NCBI GenBank assembly: GCA_007116495.1
Contig: SKIJ01000013.1
Span: forward strand, 1-59,363
From: Cryomorphaceae bacterium
Lineage (GTDB): Bacteria > Bacteroidota > Bacteroidia > Flavobacteriales > Schleiferiaceae
Direction of reading: 5' to 3'
Length of the DNA: 59,363 bases
Shown here: one piece after another, positions 7,800-15,298 of the stretch
How the letters are laid out: the number at the start of each line of letters is the position of its first letter
Numbering within the stretch: position 1 is the first letter of the stretch
Notes under the pieces: model-generated
What the model was told of the DNA's origin: nothing
What the model saw: the letters and a program-made list of their open reading frames with translations, nothing else
Database searches by the model: none
Program-made: the position numbers and the translations under genes

Positions 7800-8890
7800 C
7801 AGAATAACGTATTCTTGCCTCCAAACGAGGCACTAAGTGAAAAAATGTTTGAGTACATGGCAATCCCTTGATTACCGATGTCCGTAAGGGCGTAACTAAC
7901 GCGTATGCCGCGATAATCAAAACCGAGTCCCATAGTGGGTGTCCAAGCCGTTCGGTACGTATTGTTGAATTGGAGTTCGCGCTGAAGCTCACCCGCACCA
8001 ACACGTAGAAAAACAAAGTCTCGGTAACCAAACTCTGCACCGGCAGAAGGATACATGCTCACCCCCGATTCGCCACTTATCAAGGCGTTTCGTTGCCCGT
8101 CAAATGTGAACACGGCATTGACTTCGGTTAATAAAGAGAAGTCATCACCGAAAGAGAAAACACGACCGCCGCCAATAATAAACGTAGGCAAGGAAATTTC
8201 GTTGTTATTGTCGGGCATATCATTTCCCGTTTCCCGAAATACCTCTGCCAATTCGTTGTCTATGCGAATGTCCCAAGCTGTAAACGTTGACGTTACATCA
8301 CGTGCAACAGCACCAAAGCGCCAATCGCCTCTTTTGTATTGAGCACCTAAGTCAAAGCCAAAGCCGTACCCCTTCGCAAAGCGCCCTAATGAGCGGTAAA
8401 TAAACTTCATATTGGCACCGTAACTAAGCCCTTCAATCTTTTCCGACGCCCTTGCGTAAGACACCAACATGGCGTAATCCGCAGCAGAAAACCGCGTGAT
8501 GCGATCGTAATCAACATTGCCATCGGCATCTTGCAGCAGGGATGTATCGGGAATATCATCTACCCCAAAGCGAATGACGGACACACCTACTGTAGATGTA
8601 TTGTCTATGGGCACGGCTACGGCAGCATAATCGAAGTTCGCGATGCTGCCAAAGTACTCGGCGTGCATCAATGACGCGTCTAAGTAGGTTTCCATGTTGG
8701 CTAAACCCGCAGGATTCCAATAACCGGCATCTGCTCCTGAAACCGAGGACACCACCGACTTACCCATGGCCAATGCACGGGCATCGACGCCTATTTCTAA
8801 AAACTCGTTGGCGTACTTACGCGCCACCTGAGCCTGCAACTGCGTCGCGATAAACGTTATAAAAAACCCCAGACGCAAATACTTTATCAT
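7799..8890 (-). CDS. PorV/PorQ family outer membrane protein
   Basis: A 363-residue protein with a signal peptide ending in QLQAQ (start at 8890, MIKYLRLGFF). The N-terminal stretch KYANEFLEIGVDARALAMG followed by DAGYWNPAGLAN is the signature of the PorV/PorQ (FadL-like, UPF0164-type) barrels that work with type IX secretion or in outer membrane transport. The rest is alternating beta-strand sequence ending in FGGKNTLF. An upstream in-frame start would add 24 residues without a signal-like profile. It is the first gene of a unit with the Lnt-like protein. Whether it is PorV, PorQ or another paralog cannot be decided here. Confidence 0.85.
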   Translation of the reverse strand: MIKYLRLGFFITFIATQLQAQVARKYANEFLEIGVDARALAMGKSVVSSVSGADAGYWNPAGLANMETYLDASLMHAEYFGSIANFDYAAVAVPIDNTSTVGVSVIRFGVDDIPDTSLLQDADGNVDYDRITRFSAADYAMLVSYARASEKIEGLSYGANMKFIYRSLGRFAKGYGFGFDLGAQYKRGDWRFGAVARDVTSTFTAWDIRIDNELAEVFRETGNDMPDNNNEISLPTFIIGGGRVFSFGDDFSLLTEVNAVFTFDGQRNALISGESGVSMYPSAGAEFGYRDFVFLRVGAGELQRELQFNNTYRTAWTPTMGLGFDYRGIRVSYALTDIGNQGIAMYSNIFSLSASFGGKNTLF

Positions 8891-8943
8891 AATCTTAGCG
8901 CATACATATAATGAACGGATAATCACCCTAATTCTTGACGCCA

Positions 8944-8951
8944 CAAATATA
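8944..8951 (-). promoter_or_regulatory. putative -7 element for the PorV/PorQ-like gene
   Basis: TATATTTG on the minus strand, 53 nt before the ATG at 8890. The -33 box is not clear. Confidence 0.55.
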
Positions 8952-9105
8952 TGTGGTAACAAGGATAATGGTTAAACGTTTTTAAGCGGGATTATTGTTT
9001 GCGATGATATTTTTTCTGAAAATTTCCAAATGTCGTTTTAATGCAAACTCTTAAAAGAACACGTAAAATAGACACGCATTTAATATTCCCGTAACATTAC
9101 AATTC

Positions 9106-9113
9106 TACTTTTG
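9106..9113 (+). promoter_or_regulatory. putative -7 element for the lipoprotein-porin operon
   Basis: TACTTTTG lies 18 nt before the ATG at 9132. A TTG triplet read as a start at 9111 is part of this element, so translation is more likely to start at 9132. Confidence 0.55.
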
Positions 9114-9131
9114 TCGCGTAATAAAATCGAT

Positions 9132-9746
9132 ATGCGTTACTTAACCATCTGCTTGATTGTACTGGGGCTTACTAATTGCACCAAAGATCGCGAGTTCGAC
9201 GACATTCAACTATCTATCAATGGTGACCTGTCGGTTTTGCACCACTGGCACTTCAACAATGCAATTGACATAAACGATTTATTGGTTGCTGACTACAGTG
9301 TTGACTTTGCTTTTATTGAGGTGGAAGCCATTCGATGGGACGAAGATGACGATGGCACAGAACTGAACTTACTCGATGGTTTTGAAGCGGGAAATGTTTT
9401 ACGCATCAGAAACCCATCTCAACACATTGACTTGGTATTTCCCACCATAGGTTACGAAAGCATTTTCTTGAGTTTTGCCACCAGGCGAACCAACAACGGT
9501 GCGCAAAAACAACACATATCCTACGCCATAGATGGTAATTCATTTACCGAAATGGGCATTGAAGAGGTGACTAAAGACATCCAAACGGAATGGCACGTTC
9601 ACACATTTGATTTAAGTCACTTACCATCATTTAATAATCGAAATGAAGTTCGCATCCGCATCCGCTTTTCAGAAGGCAATAATGGCGACAGCGGCAACAA
9701 CCGATTCGACAACATCTCCATTCTCGGTTCGCCCATAACAGAATAA
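9132..9746 (+). CDS. lipoprotein with jelly-roll-like domain
   Basis: A 204-residue lipoprotein: the signal sequence MRYLTICLIVLGLTNC ends in lipobox LTNC (Cys16), so it is probably anchored in the membrane by a lipidated Cys. The mature part contains GNVLRIRNPS, YESIFLSFATRRTNNGAQ and WHVHTFDLSHLP, a pattern seen in beta-sandwich domains appended to secreted nucleases and other exported proteins of Bacteroidota. No catalytic residues are recognised. It lies 6 bp before the next gene and heads an operon with the propeller protein and the porin. The function is unknown; binding of a polymer at the cell surface is a guess. Confidence 0.75.
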   Translation: MRYLTICLIVLGLTNCTKDREFDDIQLSINGDLSVLHHWHFNNAIDINDLLVADYSVDFAFIEVEAIRWDEDDDGTELNLLDGFEAGNVLRIRNPSQHIDLVFPTIGYESIFLSFATRRTNNGAQKQHISYAIDGNSFTEMGIEEVTKDIQTEWHVHTFDLSHLPSFNNRNEVRIRIRFSEGNNGDSGNNRFDNISILGSPITE

Positions 9747-9752
9747 TCATTT

Positions 9753-10469
9753 ATGCGCTTATTATTCATCATTGTCATTGGGTTAAGTACATATACTTTA
9801 TCGGCGCAAAAACCACCCAAACTCAAACCATTCGGTTACATTCACATCGATGTCCCTGAACCCTCAGATATCATTGCAAACCCCTTCAAGCCCAATCACT
9901 TTTTTGTGGTTAGTGACGATGGGTTTCTCTTTGAAATGAATCGAGACGGGAAAATAACCCGCAAAGCTGATTTCACCGGAATCGATTGCGAAGGCGTTTA
10001 TGCCAACGACACTGCCATTTTTGTAGTGGAAGAATACACCCGAAAAATTCGCGTATTTGATTACGCAAGTTTATCGTTGCAGCAAACCGCCATCTTTCCC
10101 TACAGTGGTGGACGCAACAAGGGATACGAATCCATCACCTACAATGAAGTCCGGCAGCGCTTCTTAATGATCACCGAAAAAGACCCCATCTACTTGGTCG
10201 AACTCGACAAAGATCTTAACCGCGTCAACGAAGTATATCTGGAAGGCATTGCCAGAGATATTTCGGCCGCTACTTGGTACGACAATCATGTGTGGCTATT
10301 GAGCGATGAAGACATGGAGGTCATAAAGCTCAATCCCAACAACTATCAAGAAATCATGCGCTGGCGCATTCCAATCATCAATCCGGAAGGTATATGCTTC
10401 TACGACAACCGAATGTTCATCCTCTCCGACGATATGGAGCGACTGTATGAATTCCCCATTCCTCAATAA
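9753..10469 (+). CDS. SdiA-regulated-type beta-propeller protein
   Basis: A 238-residue exported protein with signal peptide MRLLFIIVIGLSTYTLSAQ. The repeated blades (EPSDIIANPFKPNHFFVVSDDG, DFTGIDCEGV, YESITYNEVRQRFLMITEKDP, WLLSDEDMEVIKL, INPEGICFYDNRMFILSDD) follow the SdiA-regulated/YjiK domain, a six-bladed propeller related to esterase-like phytases. A role in phosphate-ester chemistry or ligand binding is possible, but no activity can be assigned. It is separated from the following porin by one base, so the two are probably translationally coupled. Confidence 0.8.
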   Translation: MRLLFIIVIGLSTYTLSAQKPPKLKPFGYIHIDVPEPSDIIANPFKPNHFFVVSDDGFLFEMNRDGKITRKADFTGIDCEGVYANDTAIFVVEEYTRKIRVFDYASLSLQQTAIFPYSGGRNKGYESITYNEVRQRFLMITEKDPIYLVELDKDLNRVNEVYLEGIARDISAATWYDNHVWLLSDEDMEVIKLNPNNYQEIMRWRIPIINPEGICFYDNRMFILSDDMERLYEFPIPQ

Positions 10470-10470
10470 C

Positions 10471-11655
10471 ATGTCTGCATACAAACGCATTTCAATAACC
10501 ATTGCGCTGTTTTTTATCGGCGTCAACTTTGCTCATGCACAGGTAACCATCAGCGACGGTCGACACGTAATGGAGATTTCCGGTGGCATATCGACGTATT
10601 ACAACCAGCGCTTTCTTAAACCAACCAGCGACAACCGCAATAAGGATCGCTTTCGACTGAGGGATGCGCAAATTCAGATAGAGGGCCGTATTGGCAACCT
10701 ATACGAGTACGAATTACAGGTCGACTTTGTGGATTTGGCCTCGTTTGCCACCGGTGAAATAGACCCGGAAAATCCCGGATTGATGGACGCCTACATTCGC
10801 TACAAGGGACTTAAATTTGTTGATGTTCAAGTGGGATACGGAAAACTCTACTATTCCAGAAGCTCGTTGACACCTTTTACTCGTACCCCATACTGGCAAC
10901 GAGCACAAATTGTGAGAGGTAACATGTTTAGCCGCCGCGATGTGGGTATTACCTTGATGAAAAACGTTTGGCGACAACGCATCAACATGTACGCCGGGGT
11001 ATATACCGGTTTGGGAGAAATCACCCTTCGCGGCGACAACGATGCCAGTGGTGGATTGGAATACGTTGGTCGGGTTGACGTGGCCTATCCGACCCGCTTT
11101 CGCTACCGCGACATCGACGATCGCGTCACACCCATTCCTATGTTTAGCGTAGGATTTAATGGCCGTTATGCCGAGAAAAATTTACCCGATGGAAGAAGCT
11201 TTCCCGCGTTTTCCACCGGAGAATTTGGGCTGAAAGTTATTAATGGTGAACGCTACGCCTACGGGTTAGACGCCGCTTTTATGTACATGGGCTTTTCGGG
11301 CAGTTTTGAAATCCACCAAATGCGAATGATTCCTCAAAACGCAAACGACCCATTGTTTCAAGGCTTTTTACCGGAGCAAACCAACGGCTATATTCTCGCC
11401 GGAGGGAATGTCTCGCAACTCAACTATTTCTCCAAAAAGCTAAAATCCATTATTTCCGTCCGCTACGAAGAACTGGATCTAAGCGATCTTATTCCTGGTA
11501 AATCCCAACGATTATCTGCTGCATTGGCCTACCAAATACGTGGCTTCGACTCTATGATTAAGTTTCAATACTTCCAAATATTAGCCGAAGAAACCATTGA
11601 TCCCATCCGCTGGACCGAACAATTCCGCATTGGCTGGCAACTCAATTTCAAGTAA
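10471..11655 (+). CDS. OprO/OprP-like porin
   Basis: A 394-residue outer membrane barrel. Signal peptide MSAYKRISITIALFFIGVNFAHAQ (start 10471, directly after the previous stop). Early residues give RFRLRDAQIQIEGRIGNLYEYELQVDF, the phosphate-selective porin O/P family signature, followed by MDAYIRYKG, VQVGYGKLYYSRSSLTPFTRTPYWQRA and alternating strands to the C-terminal WQLNFK. Family members pass phosphate, polyphosphate or other anions through the outer membrane. Co-transcription with the propeller protein and proximity to a phospholipase D-type exoenzyme would fit uptake of released phosphate, but specificity is not readable. Confidence 0.88.
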   Translation: MSAYKRISITIALFFIGVNFAHAQVTISDGRHVMEISGGISTYYNQRFLKPTSDNRNKDRFRLRDAQIQIEGRIGNLYEYELQVDFVDLASFATGEIDPENPGLMDAYIRYKGLKFVDVQVGYGKLYYSRSSLTPFTRTPYWQRAQIVRGNMFSRRDVGITLMKNVWRQRINMYAGVYTGLGEITLRGDNDASGGLEYVGRVDVAYPTRFRYRDIDDRVTPIPMFSVGFNGRYAEKNLPDGRSFPAFSTGEFGLKVINGERYAYGLDAAFMYMGFSGSFEIHQMRMIPQNANDPLFQGFLPEQTNGYILAGGNVSQLNYFSKKLKSIISVRYEELDLSDLIPGKSQRLSAALAYQIRGFDSMIKFQYFQILAEETIDPIRWTEQFRIGWQLNFK

Positions 11656-11686: not shown

Positions 11687-11694
11687 GAACTTTG
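11687..11694 (+). promoter_or_regulatory. weak -7-like element before the PLD gene
   Basis: GAACTTTG matches seven of eight positions of TAnnTTTG and lies 18 nt before the ATG at 11713. Low support. Confidence 0.3.
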
Positions 11695-11712
11695 CGGCCT
11701 AATAAATTCAAA

Positions 11713-13953
11713 ATGATGAAGAGAGCTTTCTTGGCGTTGAGCCTATTGTCGTTGGTTTTTACCACCCATACATTTGCCCAGCAAACCATCGCGCAAGCAC
11801 GTAACTTAGGCGTTGGCAATACCGTAACCGTTACAGGGATTGTCACTGCCGATAGCACCCTTTACCCCGGCAGCGGAGTCACCATTTACTTTCAAGACAA
11901 CACCGCCGGACTTTCAGCCTTTAATCCCGGCACACTACTAAGCGGCGTTCGTCAAGGGGATAGCATTGAAATCACCGGCGAACTGTCTCAGTTTAATCAA
12001 CTCCTGCAAATCAGTCCGGTTAATTCCGTGAATATTCTCAGCAGCAACAACGCGCTTCCGGCGCCCATAAGCGTTACCCTCAGCAACGGCTGGGTACAAC
12101 AATACGAATGCATGCTGGTGGAAGTGAGCGGCGTCACCGTCAGCGGCACGGGCACCTTCTCCGGCAACACCAACTACAACATCACCGATGGCAGCAATAC
12201 ACGCGAGATTCGCATCAACAACCGCACGCCGCTTGTAGGCACCCCCATCCCCGGATCACTGGTAAACATTACCGGGATTATGAGTCGCTTTATTGGCACC
12301 TACCAATTGCTGCCACGCTACACCACCGACATCAACCAAGGTGCCGGTCCGCAAATCATTTCCGATATTGAGCAGAGCAACATCGCTACCACCTCATTCG
12401 ATTTATCCTTTGAAACCCAAGACCCGGGCACAACCATTTTCTATTACGGTACCAACGCCTTAATGAATCAACCGCCCGTGGTCAACGCCAATCTAACCAC
12501 CTCACACAGCGAAACCCTCAGCGGATTGCAACCCGGACGCATTTACTTCGCCCAAGCCGCTTCCGTCGACGCGCAAGGCGACACCTCTCTTTCGCCCATG
12601 CGCGTGTTTGCTACCCAATCGCTTTCCAGCGGCGACATGAAGGCCTTCTTCATCACCGAGCCCGATACCTCTGTGGCGCGCTTTGGCAACGCCGTATACA
12701 CCGGTAGCTCGATCATCGACACGCTGATTGCTTACGTTGACAATGCACAAAGCACCATCGATATTGCCATTTACAACTGGAATAACAACGGAATTCCCGA
12801 CCTAGGCACCGCCCTCAACAATGCCGCCAATCGCGGGGTGCGCGTTCGCTTTATCACCGATGCGCAGACTGCTACCCTCGGGATGAATACGCTTTCTTCA
12901 TCCATACCCACGTTGCAAAGTCCTGTAGGCGCGGCATACGGGATCATGCACAACAAATTTGTGGTCATCGACGCTGAGTCTACCGACCCCAACCGCCCCA
13001 TCGTGTGGACCGGATCGACCAACTGGACCGTAGGACAACTTACCACCGACCCCAACAATACCGTGGTCATCCAAGACCAGTCCTTGGCACGCGCCTTCCA
13101 ATTGGAATTCCAAGAAATGTGGGGATCCAGTGGTAGTTTGCCCAATAGCATGAACAGCCGTTTTGGTCCCGACAAAAGCGATAACACCCCGCACTTGTTC
13201 AACATCAATGGCATTCGCGTGGAATTATATTTTAGTCCGACCGACAACGTCGAGGCCAACATCATCCGCGCTTTGGAAAGTGCCGATCAAGATTTACAGG
13301 TGGCTACGATGTTGATGACCAGAACGACTTTAGCAAACGCTCTGGCCGACAAACATAACGACGGTGTTTATACCGCAGCCATTCTCAACGACAACACCAC
13401 CACCGGCTCACAACCGGCGTGGAATATCCTCAGCTCAGAGCTGCCTTCCAGTCGTTTGTTTTTGAACAACCAGAACTACATCATGCACCACAAGTACGCC
13501 ATCGTGGATCAAAGCGCCCCACAAAGCGATCCGTTGGTAGTGACCGGGTCGCACAACTGGTCGAATGCAGCCAATCAGCGCAACGACGAAAACACCATCA
13601 TCATTTACGACGAGGTGATGGCCAATTTGTTCTTTCAAGACTGGGTGAAAATCTTCCGCGACAATGGCGGCACCGATATTTCGAATCTTTCCGGTGAGGA
13701 CTTTGGAATTAGCATTTCTCCCAATGTTCTTTACCCAAATCCAACCAGTGGTAATGCCACGTTGGACTTCACGGCTTATAACTCGGCGAGCATGCAGGTA
13801 TACGATCTTCAAGGGCGTATTCTCTATGCCCATCAACCGGGGAAAGGGGTGCAATCGATTGAGGTGCCTACGGCGCACTTACCGGCCGGGATGTACTTGG
13901 TGCGTTTGGAGACGGATGGGAAGGCAGAGGTGTTTCGGTTGGTGAAGAATTAA
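11713..13953 (+). CDS. secreted phospholipase D-type protein with T9SS sorting domain
   Basis: A 746-residue exported protein. Signal peptide MMKRAFLALSLLSLVFTTHTFAQ. Residues about 25-215 form two OB-fold-like units (VTVTGIVTAD, VEVSGVTVSG). A fibronectin-III-like stretch follows (about 225-310). The catalytic part has two HKD motifs, HNKFVVID at His413 and HHKYAIVD at His592, each with the downstream GSTNW or GSHNWS segment, so one chain carries a full PLD active site. The last ~75 residues (LYPNPTSGNATLDF) are a type A T9SS sorting domain. PLD-fold exoenzymes act on phospholipids or nucleic acids; the OB folds favour a nuclease, but this is inference. Codons are richer in GC than in its neighbours downstream. 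Confidence 0.92.
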   Translation: MMKRAFLALSLLSLVFTTHTFAQQTIAQARNLGVGNTVTVTGIVTADSTLYPGSGVTIYFQDNTAGLSAFNPGTLLSGVRQGDSIEITGELSQFNQLLQISPVNSVNILSSNNALPAPISVTLSNGWVQQYECMLVEVSGVTVSGTGTFSGNTNYNITDGSNTREIRINNRTPLVGTPIPGSLVNITGIMSRFIGTYQLLPRYTTDINQGAGPQIISDIEQSNIATTSFDLSFETQDPGTTIFYYGTNALMNQPPVVNANLTTSHSETLSGLQPGRIYFAQAASVDAQGDTSLSPMRVFATQSLSSGDMKAFFITEPDTSVARFGNAVYTGSSIIDTLIAYVDNAQSTIDIAIYNWNNNGIPDLGTALNNAANRGVRVRFITDAQTATLGMNTLSSSIPTLQSPVGAAYGIMHNKFVVIDAESTDPNRPIVWTGSTNWTVGQLTTDPNNTVVIQDQSLARAFQLEFQEMWGSSGSLPNSMNSRFGPDKSDNTPHLFNINGIRVELYFSPTDNVEANIIRALESADQDLQVATMLMTRTTLANALADKHNDGVYTAAILNDNTTTGSQPAWNILSSELPSSRLFLNNQNYIMHHKYAIVDQSAPQSDPLVVTGSHNWSNAANQRNDENTIIIYDEVMANLFFQDWVKIFRDNGGTDISNLSGEDFGISISPNVLYPNPTSGNATLDFTAYNSASMQVYDLQGRILYAHQPGKGVQSIEVPTAHLPAGMYLVRLETDGKAEVFRLVKN

Positions 13954-13961
13954 GGGGTGCA

Positions 13962-14452
13962 TAGAGGCACATATAAAGCATAGGGTTCGCTTCGCTCAGT
14001 TTTTTTTTGAACTACATAGGCACATAGAAGAACATAGAGCTCGCTGCGCTCACTTTTTAATACAAGGACACATAGAAAGTATAGTGTGTTCGCTGCGCTC
14101 AATTATTTTAGAATCACCAAGACACACATAGAACTACAAAGGCACACAAAGGTTTTCATGTAGTATTCTATGCTTCCTCATAATAGTTCTACATGTCCTT
14201 TTGATCTTCATCTTCTATGTGACCTAAAATAAACAGTGAGCGAAGCGAAATCTATGTGTACCTATGTGGTAAAAAACATAAGCGAAGCGAAATCTATGTG
14301 ACCTAAAATATACAATGAGCGAAGCGAAATCTATGTGTACCTATGTGCCTATGTGGTAAAAAACATAAGCGAAACAAAATCTATGTGACCTAAAATAAAC
14401 AATGAGCGAAGCGAAATCTATGTGTACCTATGTGCCTATGTGGTAAAAAAAA
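13962..14452. repeat. two-sided repeat cassette built on TGAGCGAAGCGAA
   Basis: A non-coding 490-bp block. The left half carries three copies of the reverse complement, TTCGC[T/G][T/G]CGCTCA-type 13-mers at 13986-13998, 14040-14052 and 14089-14101, each preceded by CATAGGCACATAG-like words. The right half carries the forward 13-mer TGAGCGAAGCGAA at 14237, 14316 and 14403, plus AAGCGAAGCGAA at about 14281. The two halves can pair with each other. No ORF with coding character runs through it. Confidence 0.85.
14214..14452 (+). repeat. three tandem units of 79, 87 and about 73 bp
   Basis: Units start at TCTATGTGACC at 14214, 14293 and 14380. Each reads CTATGTGACC-TAAAATAaACA-TGAGCGAAGCGAAA-TCTATGTGTACC-TATGTG-GTAAAAAA in order; unit 2 and 3 hold an additional CCTATGTG octamer. 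Differences between units are a few substitutions (for example GCGAAGC to GCGAAAC in unit 2). Confidence 0.9.
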
Positions 14453-14542
14453 ATGTATCTACCACATAAGCGCTTAGCTCCTATATCATCAAACATGACT
14501 ATATTGCACCTCCCTTATATCTCCAATCGCAAAACCATAGCA

Positions 14543-15298
14543 ATGAAGCAATTTTTTACTACCCTTATCTGTACATTTTCGTTTATCGCTTTCGCACAAC
14601 AAGACGTCGATACCTTCATTACGTATCCCGGCTGTGAGGATGCCAGCGACCTCGAAGACTGTTTTTTCGAGAAGGTTTATCTGCACATCGTTGATTCCTC
14701 TGAGTTGTTGAGCAATCTTGTTGAAAAGGACTCATTCACATTTGAAGCTGACGTTATTTTTGGCATTGACGGGTCGGTCTATGCCGTTGAGGTTGTCAAA
14801 CCAGTCGACCCGGCATTTGATGAAGAAGCTGTTCGCGTCATTGAATCGTTACCCCGTGTTCAACCCGCCGTAAAGGATGGAAAAAATATTTCTTTACAGG
14901 TTACCATCCCCATCCATTACAAAACAGACGACAAAGACAAGGTTTTGAAATACGCCTACGTAGAGAAAAAACCCGTTTTTCCCGGTTGTGAAGATGAGGA
15001 CTCGGAAGATGATAAATTAACGTGTTTTAACCAAAAAATGATGAGCCACGTTGCAAAAAACTTCAAGTTTCCCGACGAAGCAAGAAGAGACAAGGCCGAA
15101 GGTGTTACCGTGGCAACCTTCATCATTGAAAGAGACGGCTCCGTTTCCGGTGTCAGGATCTTACGCTCGGTACACCCGGCACTCGACGCAGAAACCATTC
15201 GCGTAATGGAGCTGCTCCCAACCTTTACCCCTGCTACGCAACGCGGAAAACCGGTGCGCATGCAGTACAACATGCCCATCAACGCGAAAATCAATTGA
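14543..15298 (+). CDS. exported protein with two TonB C-terminal-like domains
   Basis: A 251-residue protein with signal peptide MKQFFTTLICTFSFIAFAQQ (start 14543). Two similar units follow, each starting with a [YF]PGCED motif (about 29 and 147) and containing the TonB_C pattern of the type FEADVIFGIDGSVYAVEVVKPVDPAFDEEAVRVIESLP and TFIIERDGSVSGVRILRSVHPALDAETIRVMELLP. A normal TonB has an N-terminal membrane anchor and a Pro-rich linker; both are absent. So it is a soluble or loosely bound periplasmic protein rather than an energy transducer. It lies behind the repeat cassette and faces the HD gene. Its partner is unknown. Confidence 0.8.
   Translation: MKQFFTTLICTFSFIAFAQQDVDTFITYPGCEDASDLEDCFFEKVYLHIVDSSELLSNLVEKDSFTFEADVIFGIDGSVYAVEVVKPVDPAFDEEAVRVIESLPRVQPAVKDGKNISLQVTIPIHYKTDDKDKVLKYAYVEKKPVFPGCEDEDSEDDKLTCFNQKMMSHVAKNFKFPDEARRDKAEGVTVATFIIERDGSVSGVRILRSVHPALDAETIRVMELLPTFTPATQRGKPVRMQYNMPINAKIN

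Follow-up and report, generated by a model that had tools for sequence, protein, structure and literature searches.

A two-sided octamer-array element in a Cryomorphaceae genome, probably a gene-less member of a GxxExxY-linked family of dispersed repeats

The closest described counterparts of the element reported here are the REP/BIME sequences and their RAYT genes (PMC2817692), which form extragenic, palindromic, mosaic arrays with inverted repeats on either side of a small gene, a pairing of repeat and protein, and gene-less copies that exceed the gene in number. Our family is alike in each of these respects. By contrast, its repeat is a direct array of 8-10-bp words rather than one hairpin, and its gene encodes a PD-(D/E)XK protein, GxxExxY, rather than a Y1 transposase; because it has no Y1 gene and Y1 loci lack octamer arrays, it falls outside REP/RAYT as defined. 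MITEs are short, carry no ORF and share inverted ends with a gene-bearing element, all of which holds for our element; unlike MITEs, it has ends made of octamer arrays of variable number, no target duplication was recognised, and its putative enzyme does not belong to the DDE transposases. The TAACTGA heptamers of Beggiatoaceae, Cyanobacteria and some Bacteroidetes likewise occur between genes as sets of direct repeats some seven bases long (PMC4679880), yet only the repeat length is shared: they consist of one fixed word in direct rather than two-sided inverted arrays, lie mostly just upstream of start codons, and have no associated gene named in the abstract. The multicopy nucleotide sequences of Geobacter (PMC2996986, PMC2700814), compared here by description, also comprise families of intergenic direct repeats and palindromes, but are catalogues in which we saw no link to GxxExxY. 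Our literature search on the GxxExxY family and such repeat words, with most subscription journals outside its scope, found no description of their association.

We analysed a 59,363-nucleotide stretch of DNA (the window), in which the element takes up the whole interval from the stop codon of a PLD-like gene (13953) to the leader region of a gene for a TonB-domain protein (14543). A first-pass annotation had located it correctly but began it at 13962; its first base is 13954, directly 3' of the upstream stop codon. The features are as follows.

11692 to 13953, plus strand: upstream gene (PLDc_2, DUF5689, Por secretion tail; secreted PLD-like)
13954 to 14452, no strand: whole two-sided gene-less octamer-array element, from sequence reading and full-length copies in G009 contigs C98 and C49
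13960 to 14152, minus strand: left half, CACATAG-type octamers and three reversed 13-mers, orthologous in G009:C58
13986 to 13998, minus strand: 13-mer TGAGCGAAGCGAA, exact
14040 to 14052, minus strand: 13-mer variant TGAGCGCAGCGAG, 2 mismatches
14089 to 14101, minus strand: 13-mer variant TGAGCGCAGCGAA, 1 mismatch
14108 to 14213, no strand: central core between the halves, without ORF, partly conserved in two G009 copies
14214 to 14452, plus strand: right half, CTATGTG octamers in tandem units
14214 to 14292, plus strand: first right-half unit (79 bp)
14237 to 14249, plus strand: 13-mer TGAGCGAAGCGAA, exact
14279 to 14291, plus strand: 13-mer, 1 mismatch to TGAGCGAAGCGAA
14293 to 14379, plus strand: second right-half unit (87 bp)
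14316 to 14328, plus strand: 13-mer TGAGCGAAGCGAA, exact
14341 to 14355, minus strand: octamer pair CACATAGGCACATAG, step 8
14380 to 14452, plus strand: third right-half unit (73 bp)
14403 to 14415, plus strand: 13-mer TGAGCGAAGCGAA, exact
14428 to 14442, minus strand: octamer pair CACATAGGCACATAG, step 8
14543 to 15298, plus strand: downstream gene (TonB_C)

Direct reading confirmed a two-sided inverted cassette with tandem units, whose 58-nt arms (14002-14059 and 14396-14453) are 79% complementary, and the growth from 79 to 87 bp amounts to one CCTATGTG octamer. The 13-mer matches the window eight times, compared with 1.58 expected (0/100 shuffles), and seven of the eight matches lie inside the element. 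Three copies are reversed on the left, as first noted; all three had been called diverged, which is true of two but not of the exact copy at 13986-13998, and the right half carries four forward copies, the one at 14279 (one mismatch) having been overlooked. The proposed ability of the cassette to fold back on itself was upheld far beyond chance (z = -11.3 as RNA and -12.0 as DNA against dinucleotide shuffles). In contrast to a CRISPR array, the units run head to tail and are alike throughout, without unique spacers, and no ORF of at least 80 aa, and no transposase or GxxExxY gene, lies within 13954-14452 as an insertion sequence would have between its ends; both exclusions made in the first-pass annotation therefore stand. 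The 13-mer contains GCGAAGC, a known DNA mini-hairpin of very high stability. The linkers that separate octamer blocks are frequently hairpins with a GAA loop and differing stems (AACCACgaaGTGGTT, GTCGCCgaaGGCGAC, TATGCCTGAAGGCATA), as seen at L051, L053, L055, L056, L063 and L066 and in the window 13-mers, and variants such as GAGCATCGCGAA depart from this pattern.

The cassette had been proposed to be a dispersed non-coding element and a search of the genome and its relatives suggested; that search turned up numerous copies in a genus-mate, and the window's own genome (G000) contains related arrays. Within G000, the 13-mer and the 249-bp right half were found at this locus only, and an octamer-pair pattern gave 17 matches, 12 of them elsewhere. 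Contig C65 holds GAGCAACGCGAA words with CTATGTG beside CTCTGCG octamers, and contigs C61 and C165 hold CACAAAG arrays. The genus-mate G009, a Cryomorphaceae MAG matching records PXCF01, carries the 13-mer paired with the CTATGTG word at seven or more loci, among them a full copy with both halves and the core on C98 (77% over 500 bp) and a second copy with both halves and the core on C49. The pattern CACATAG-R-N0-3-CACATAG gave 68 matches in G009, 107 in another genus-mate, G011, and none in the reversed-pattern control. Because many G009 arrays sit at contig ends, copy counts in these draft genomes are lower bounds. The G009 copies vary by whole octamers and whole units, which bears out the length change by octamers read from the window alone.

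The link to GxxExxY, a small Cas4/RecB-like PD-(D/E)XK protein (TIGR04256/PF13366), was absent from the first-pass annotation. In genus-mates, most GxxExxY genes have arrays of like construction but different words at their borders, and at L037, in the window's genus, TGAGCGAAGCGAA itself lies in an array linker beside a GxxExxY gene. Across 35 GxxExxY loci of the same order we counted 131 octamer pairs versus 2.05 in shuffles, with at least two pairs at 23 loci. By contrast, 30 control Y1_Tnp loci held 1 pair versus 1.5 in shuffles, and a second control of nine other loci held 1 versus 1.0. Among 112 parsed GxxExxY loci, inward-pointing pairs lay within 250 bp at 61 (171 pairs inward versus 35 outward), the remaining 51 having no array under the motif used. 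This motif, together with a word-free comparison of left and right flanks, replaced a single-word array score, which lacked sensitivity, as related words are mixed within elements. In the word-free comparison, an inverted score of at least 15 was reached at 66/121 GxxExxY loci, compared with 0 in the reversed control, 29/121 in the direct-orientation control, and 10/28 Y1 loci, the last as expected for REP-flanked RAYTs. The class we propose consists of inward-pointing inverted arrays of 8-10-bp direct repeats, and its gene-bearing members enclose one small GxxExxY gene. Units of gene and array at L074, L081, L082, L088 and L098, in two genera, seemingly occupy the same place beside a gene beginning MKKLFKLVLN, reflecting common ancestry or a preferred site.

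G212, of another genus in the same order, connects the window element directly with the gene-bearing class: an intact 137-aa GxxExxY gene (L239) lies there between CACATAG-A-CACATAG and CTATGTG-TCTC-CTATGTG, and, in this genome and in related ones, gene-less elements of about 130-160 bp carry the same inverted CACATAG ends (L240, L242-L245). Visual inspection of the sequences flanking L239-L245 revealed no target-site duplication. The CACATAG pairs of G258 (L246, L247) and G172 (L248) do not resemble arrays and seem to be coincidental; they were set aside. The window element has inward inverted 8-10-bp arrays, with octamer steps of 8 and 10 that fall inside the range of gene-bearing loci (mostly 9-10 bp), and its word surrounds a GxxExxY gene at L239. 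Since no GxxExxY ORF was found in 13954-14452 or elsewhere in the genome, we consider it probably a gene-less, that is, non-autonomous and REP/MITE-like, member of the GxxExxY-linked dispersed family.

Words match within elements and follow the protein. Left and right words of one element lay at a distance of 0.51, compared with 1.34 for other elements (0/10000 permutations). Protein likeness correlated with word likeness (Mantel rho 0.54 overall), also for pairs from different genera (0.48; 0/1000), for such pairs with proteins differing by more than 40% (0.39) and for pairs inside single genomes (0.57). Different GxxExxY genes of one genome usually have different words, and together with these correlations this indicates that the word goes with the protein rather than with the host genome. 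The correlation partly reflects common inheritance of gene and array as a linked unit; the persistence of the match for a seven-base word between proteins more than 40% divergent points to probable recognition by GxxExxY. The protein itself keeps D67, E77, K79, Q91 and Y95 invariant (D, E-x-K, Q-xxx-Y) and matches Cas4 weakly, on which grounds it is likely a RecB/Cas4-like nuclease, and the features would fit an active one; a PDB search by sequence and profile returned no credible relative.

We favour a model, drawn from sequence comparison, in which mobility would be nuclease-driven. No empty site or target duplication was detected, a point against it. GxxExxY may bind and then cut or nick its cognate octamer arrays, and break repair would copy the element, with or without the gene, to other sites, so that gene-less copies would spread in trans. 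Meanwhile, slippage or unequal recombination would change array length by one octamer or one unit of about 80-98 bp at a time. A nuclease acting on its own repeat arrays, coupled to break-repair copying, appears to be the most economical model.

The main rival, which we regard as unlikely although better placed than the others, holds that GxxExxY is a passenger or homing-type nuclease on pre-existing octamer arrays, which would spread otherwise (by another transposase, recombination or slippage), the gene merely inserting into or living off them. It would fit the excess of gene-less arrays over genes, the alternating arrays with several centres that we observed at some loci, and G009, which holds 89 octamer pairs and no detectable GxxExxY gene. 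However, the arrays are symmetric at both gene borders and point inward, and each gene has its own word, even inside one genome. At the genome level, at least five octamer pairs were present in 35/91 genomes with GxxExxY and in 4/205 without (OR 31), an enrichment confounded by lineage and genome size and seen more weakly for Y1_Tnp. G000 and G009 are exceptions to it: neither has a detectable GxxExxY gene, both being drafts that break at repeats. These absences, in the window's own genome and in the word-rich G009, as well as the missing gene in the window copy, count against membership of the GxxExxY-linked family, which we nevertheless prefer; as no GxxExxY was found there, the G000 and G009 copies probably represent orphans whose mobilisation was either past or in trans.

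An improbable reading is that the element is a host-function site (a transcription end, an mRNA stabiliser or a nucleoid-protein site) kept under selection and without mobility of its own. Its strong fold would agree with this, as would its start at the base after the stop codon, which it shares with an orthologous element in G009 (G009:C58; L046) at the same site, directly 3' of the same stop codon. Because both species hold it in the same place, the window copy is older than their split. Against G009:C58, the element, compared from 13954 to 14110, is 89.6% identical over 125 ungapped aligned bases, with indels besides, while the neighbouring coding sequence is 88.6% identical and its third positions 71%. 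Slow change under constraint and gene conversion would both explain a likeness above that of silent sites, and the latter would weaken the case for selection. The link to GxxExxY also speaks against a host site, as does a copy number that is very uneven between the sister species. Scans of the element for terminators and promoters found nothing, and Rfam 15 gave one chance match (19.4 bits against a gathering score of 211), so that the earlier suggestion of a chromosome-structure site or structured RNA gained no positive support. In an empty-site comparison for the window locus, the G009 ortholog was occupied and the TonB relatives of other genus members lay in other contexts. Nearby, synteny breaks: window 8844-11609 (about 2.8 kb, two genes) corresponds to about 0.3 kb in G009 (L046).

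Mobilisation of a REP/BIME-type element by a RAYT (Y1_Tnp) transposase is very unlikely, and we rejected RAYT as the mobiliser. The style is the same (palindromic, inverted, mosaic, extragenic), and the single Y1_Tnp of G011, a pseudogene, adjoins a CACATAG array; however, neither G000 nor G009 has a Y1_Tnp gene, the 30 Y1_Tnp loci carry no octamer pairs beyond chance, and the G011 pseudogene is preceded by different palindromes of its own. The first-pass verdict that this is no known REP element thus holds by family, there being no Y1/RAYT gene in the genome, but not by design, since the element is built, and probably spread, like REP/BIME. At that G011 locus (L054; G011:C99:38083-38376), the palindromes before the abutting pseudogene are REP-like GCTCCGTAGGAGC sequences. 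Were the cassette just a local tandem duplication expanded by slippage, length changes by whole octamers and whole units would be accounted for, but this reading is refuted by the dispersed and full-length copies in the genus-mate and the related arrays in the own genome; the lack of other copies on which the refutation named in the first-pass annotation depended was not borne out.

Beyond this order, and also in other phyla, clear octamer arrays were recognised by eye at one viral-contig GxxExxY gene and at plasmid-borne ones from Gemmatirosa, Bernardetia and Bacteroides. Arrays in Sphingomonas, Treponema, Fusobacteria and a second viral contig were, also by eye, shorter, one-sided or differently worded, and the flanks in Persicobacter and Prevotella allowed no clear-cut array reading. 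We give roughly even chances to the broader reading that GxxExxY proteins are the enzymes of an as yet undescribed family of small mobile elements across phyla, recognising element-specific octamer arrays, with many intergenic repeats of the CACAGAG, CACAAAG, CACGAAT and CACATAG types in environmental bacteria as their non-autonomous progeny; if true, this would be a nuclease-based counterpart of the RAYT/REP system. The family suggests an undescribed kind of selfish DNA. GxxExxY, a widespread orphan protein family of unassigned role, would gain a testable job, and a likely source would be in sight for a large class of intergenic repeats now without explanation. If the model is right, bacterial intergenic DNA is shaped by a very small gene and its repeats in a second system beside RAYT/REP, built independently of it and using an unusual repeat code that appears to vary together with the protein. 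Some GxxExxY genes lie inside intact housekeeping rows, in Sphingomonas between fabD and fabG genes (L255, fabD/fabG) and in Bacteroides next to radA (L258), as expected for insertion into short intergenic gaps.
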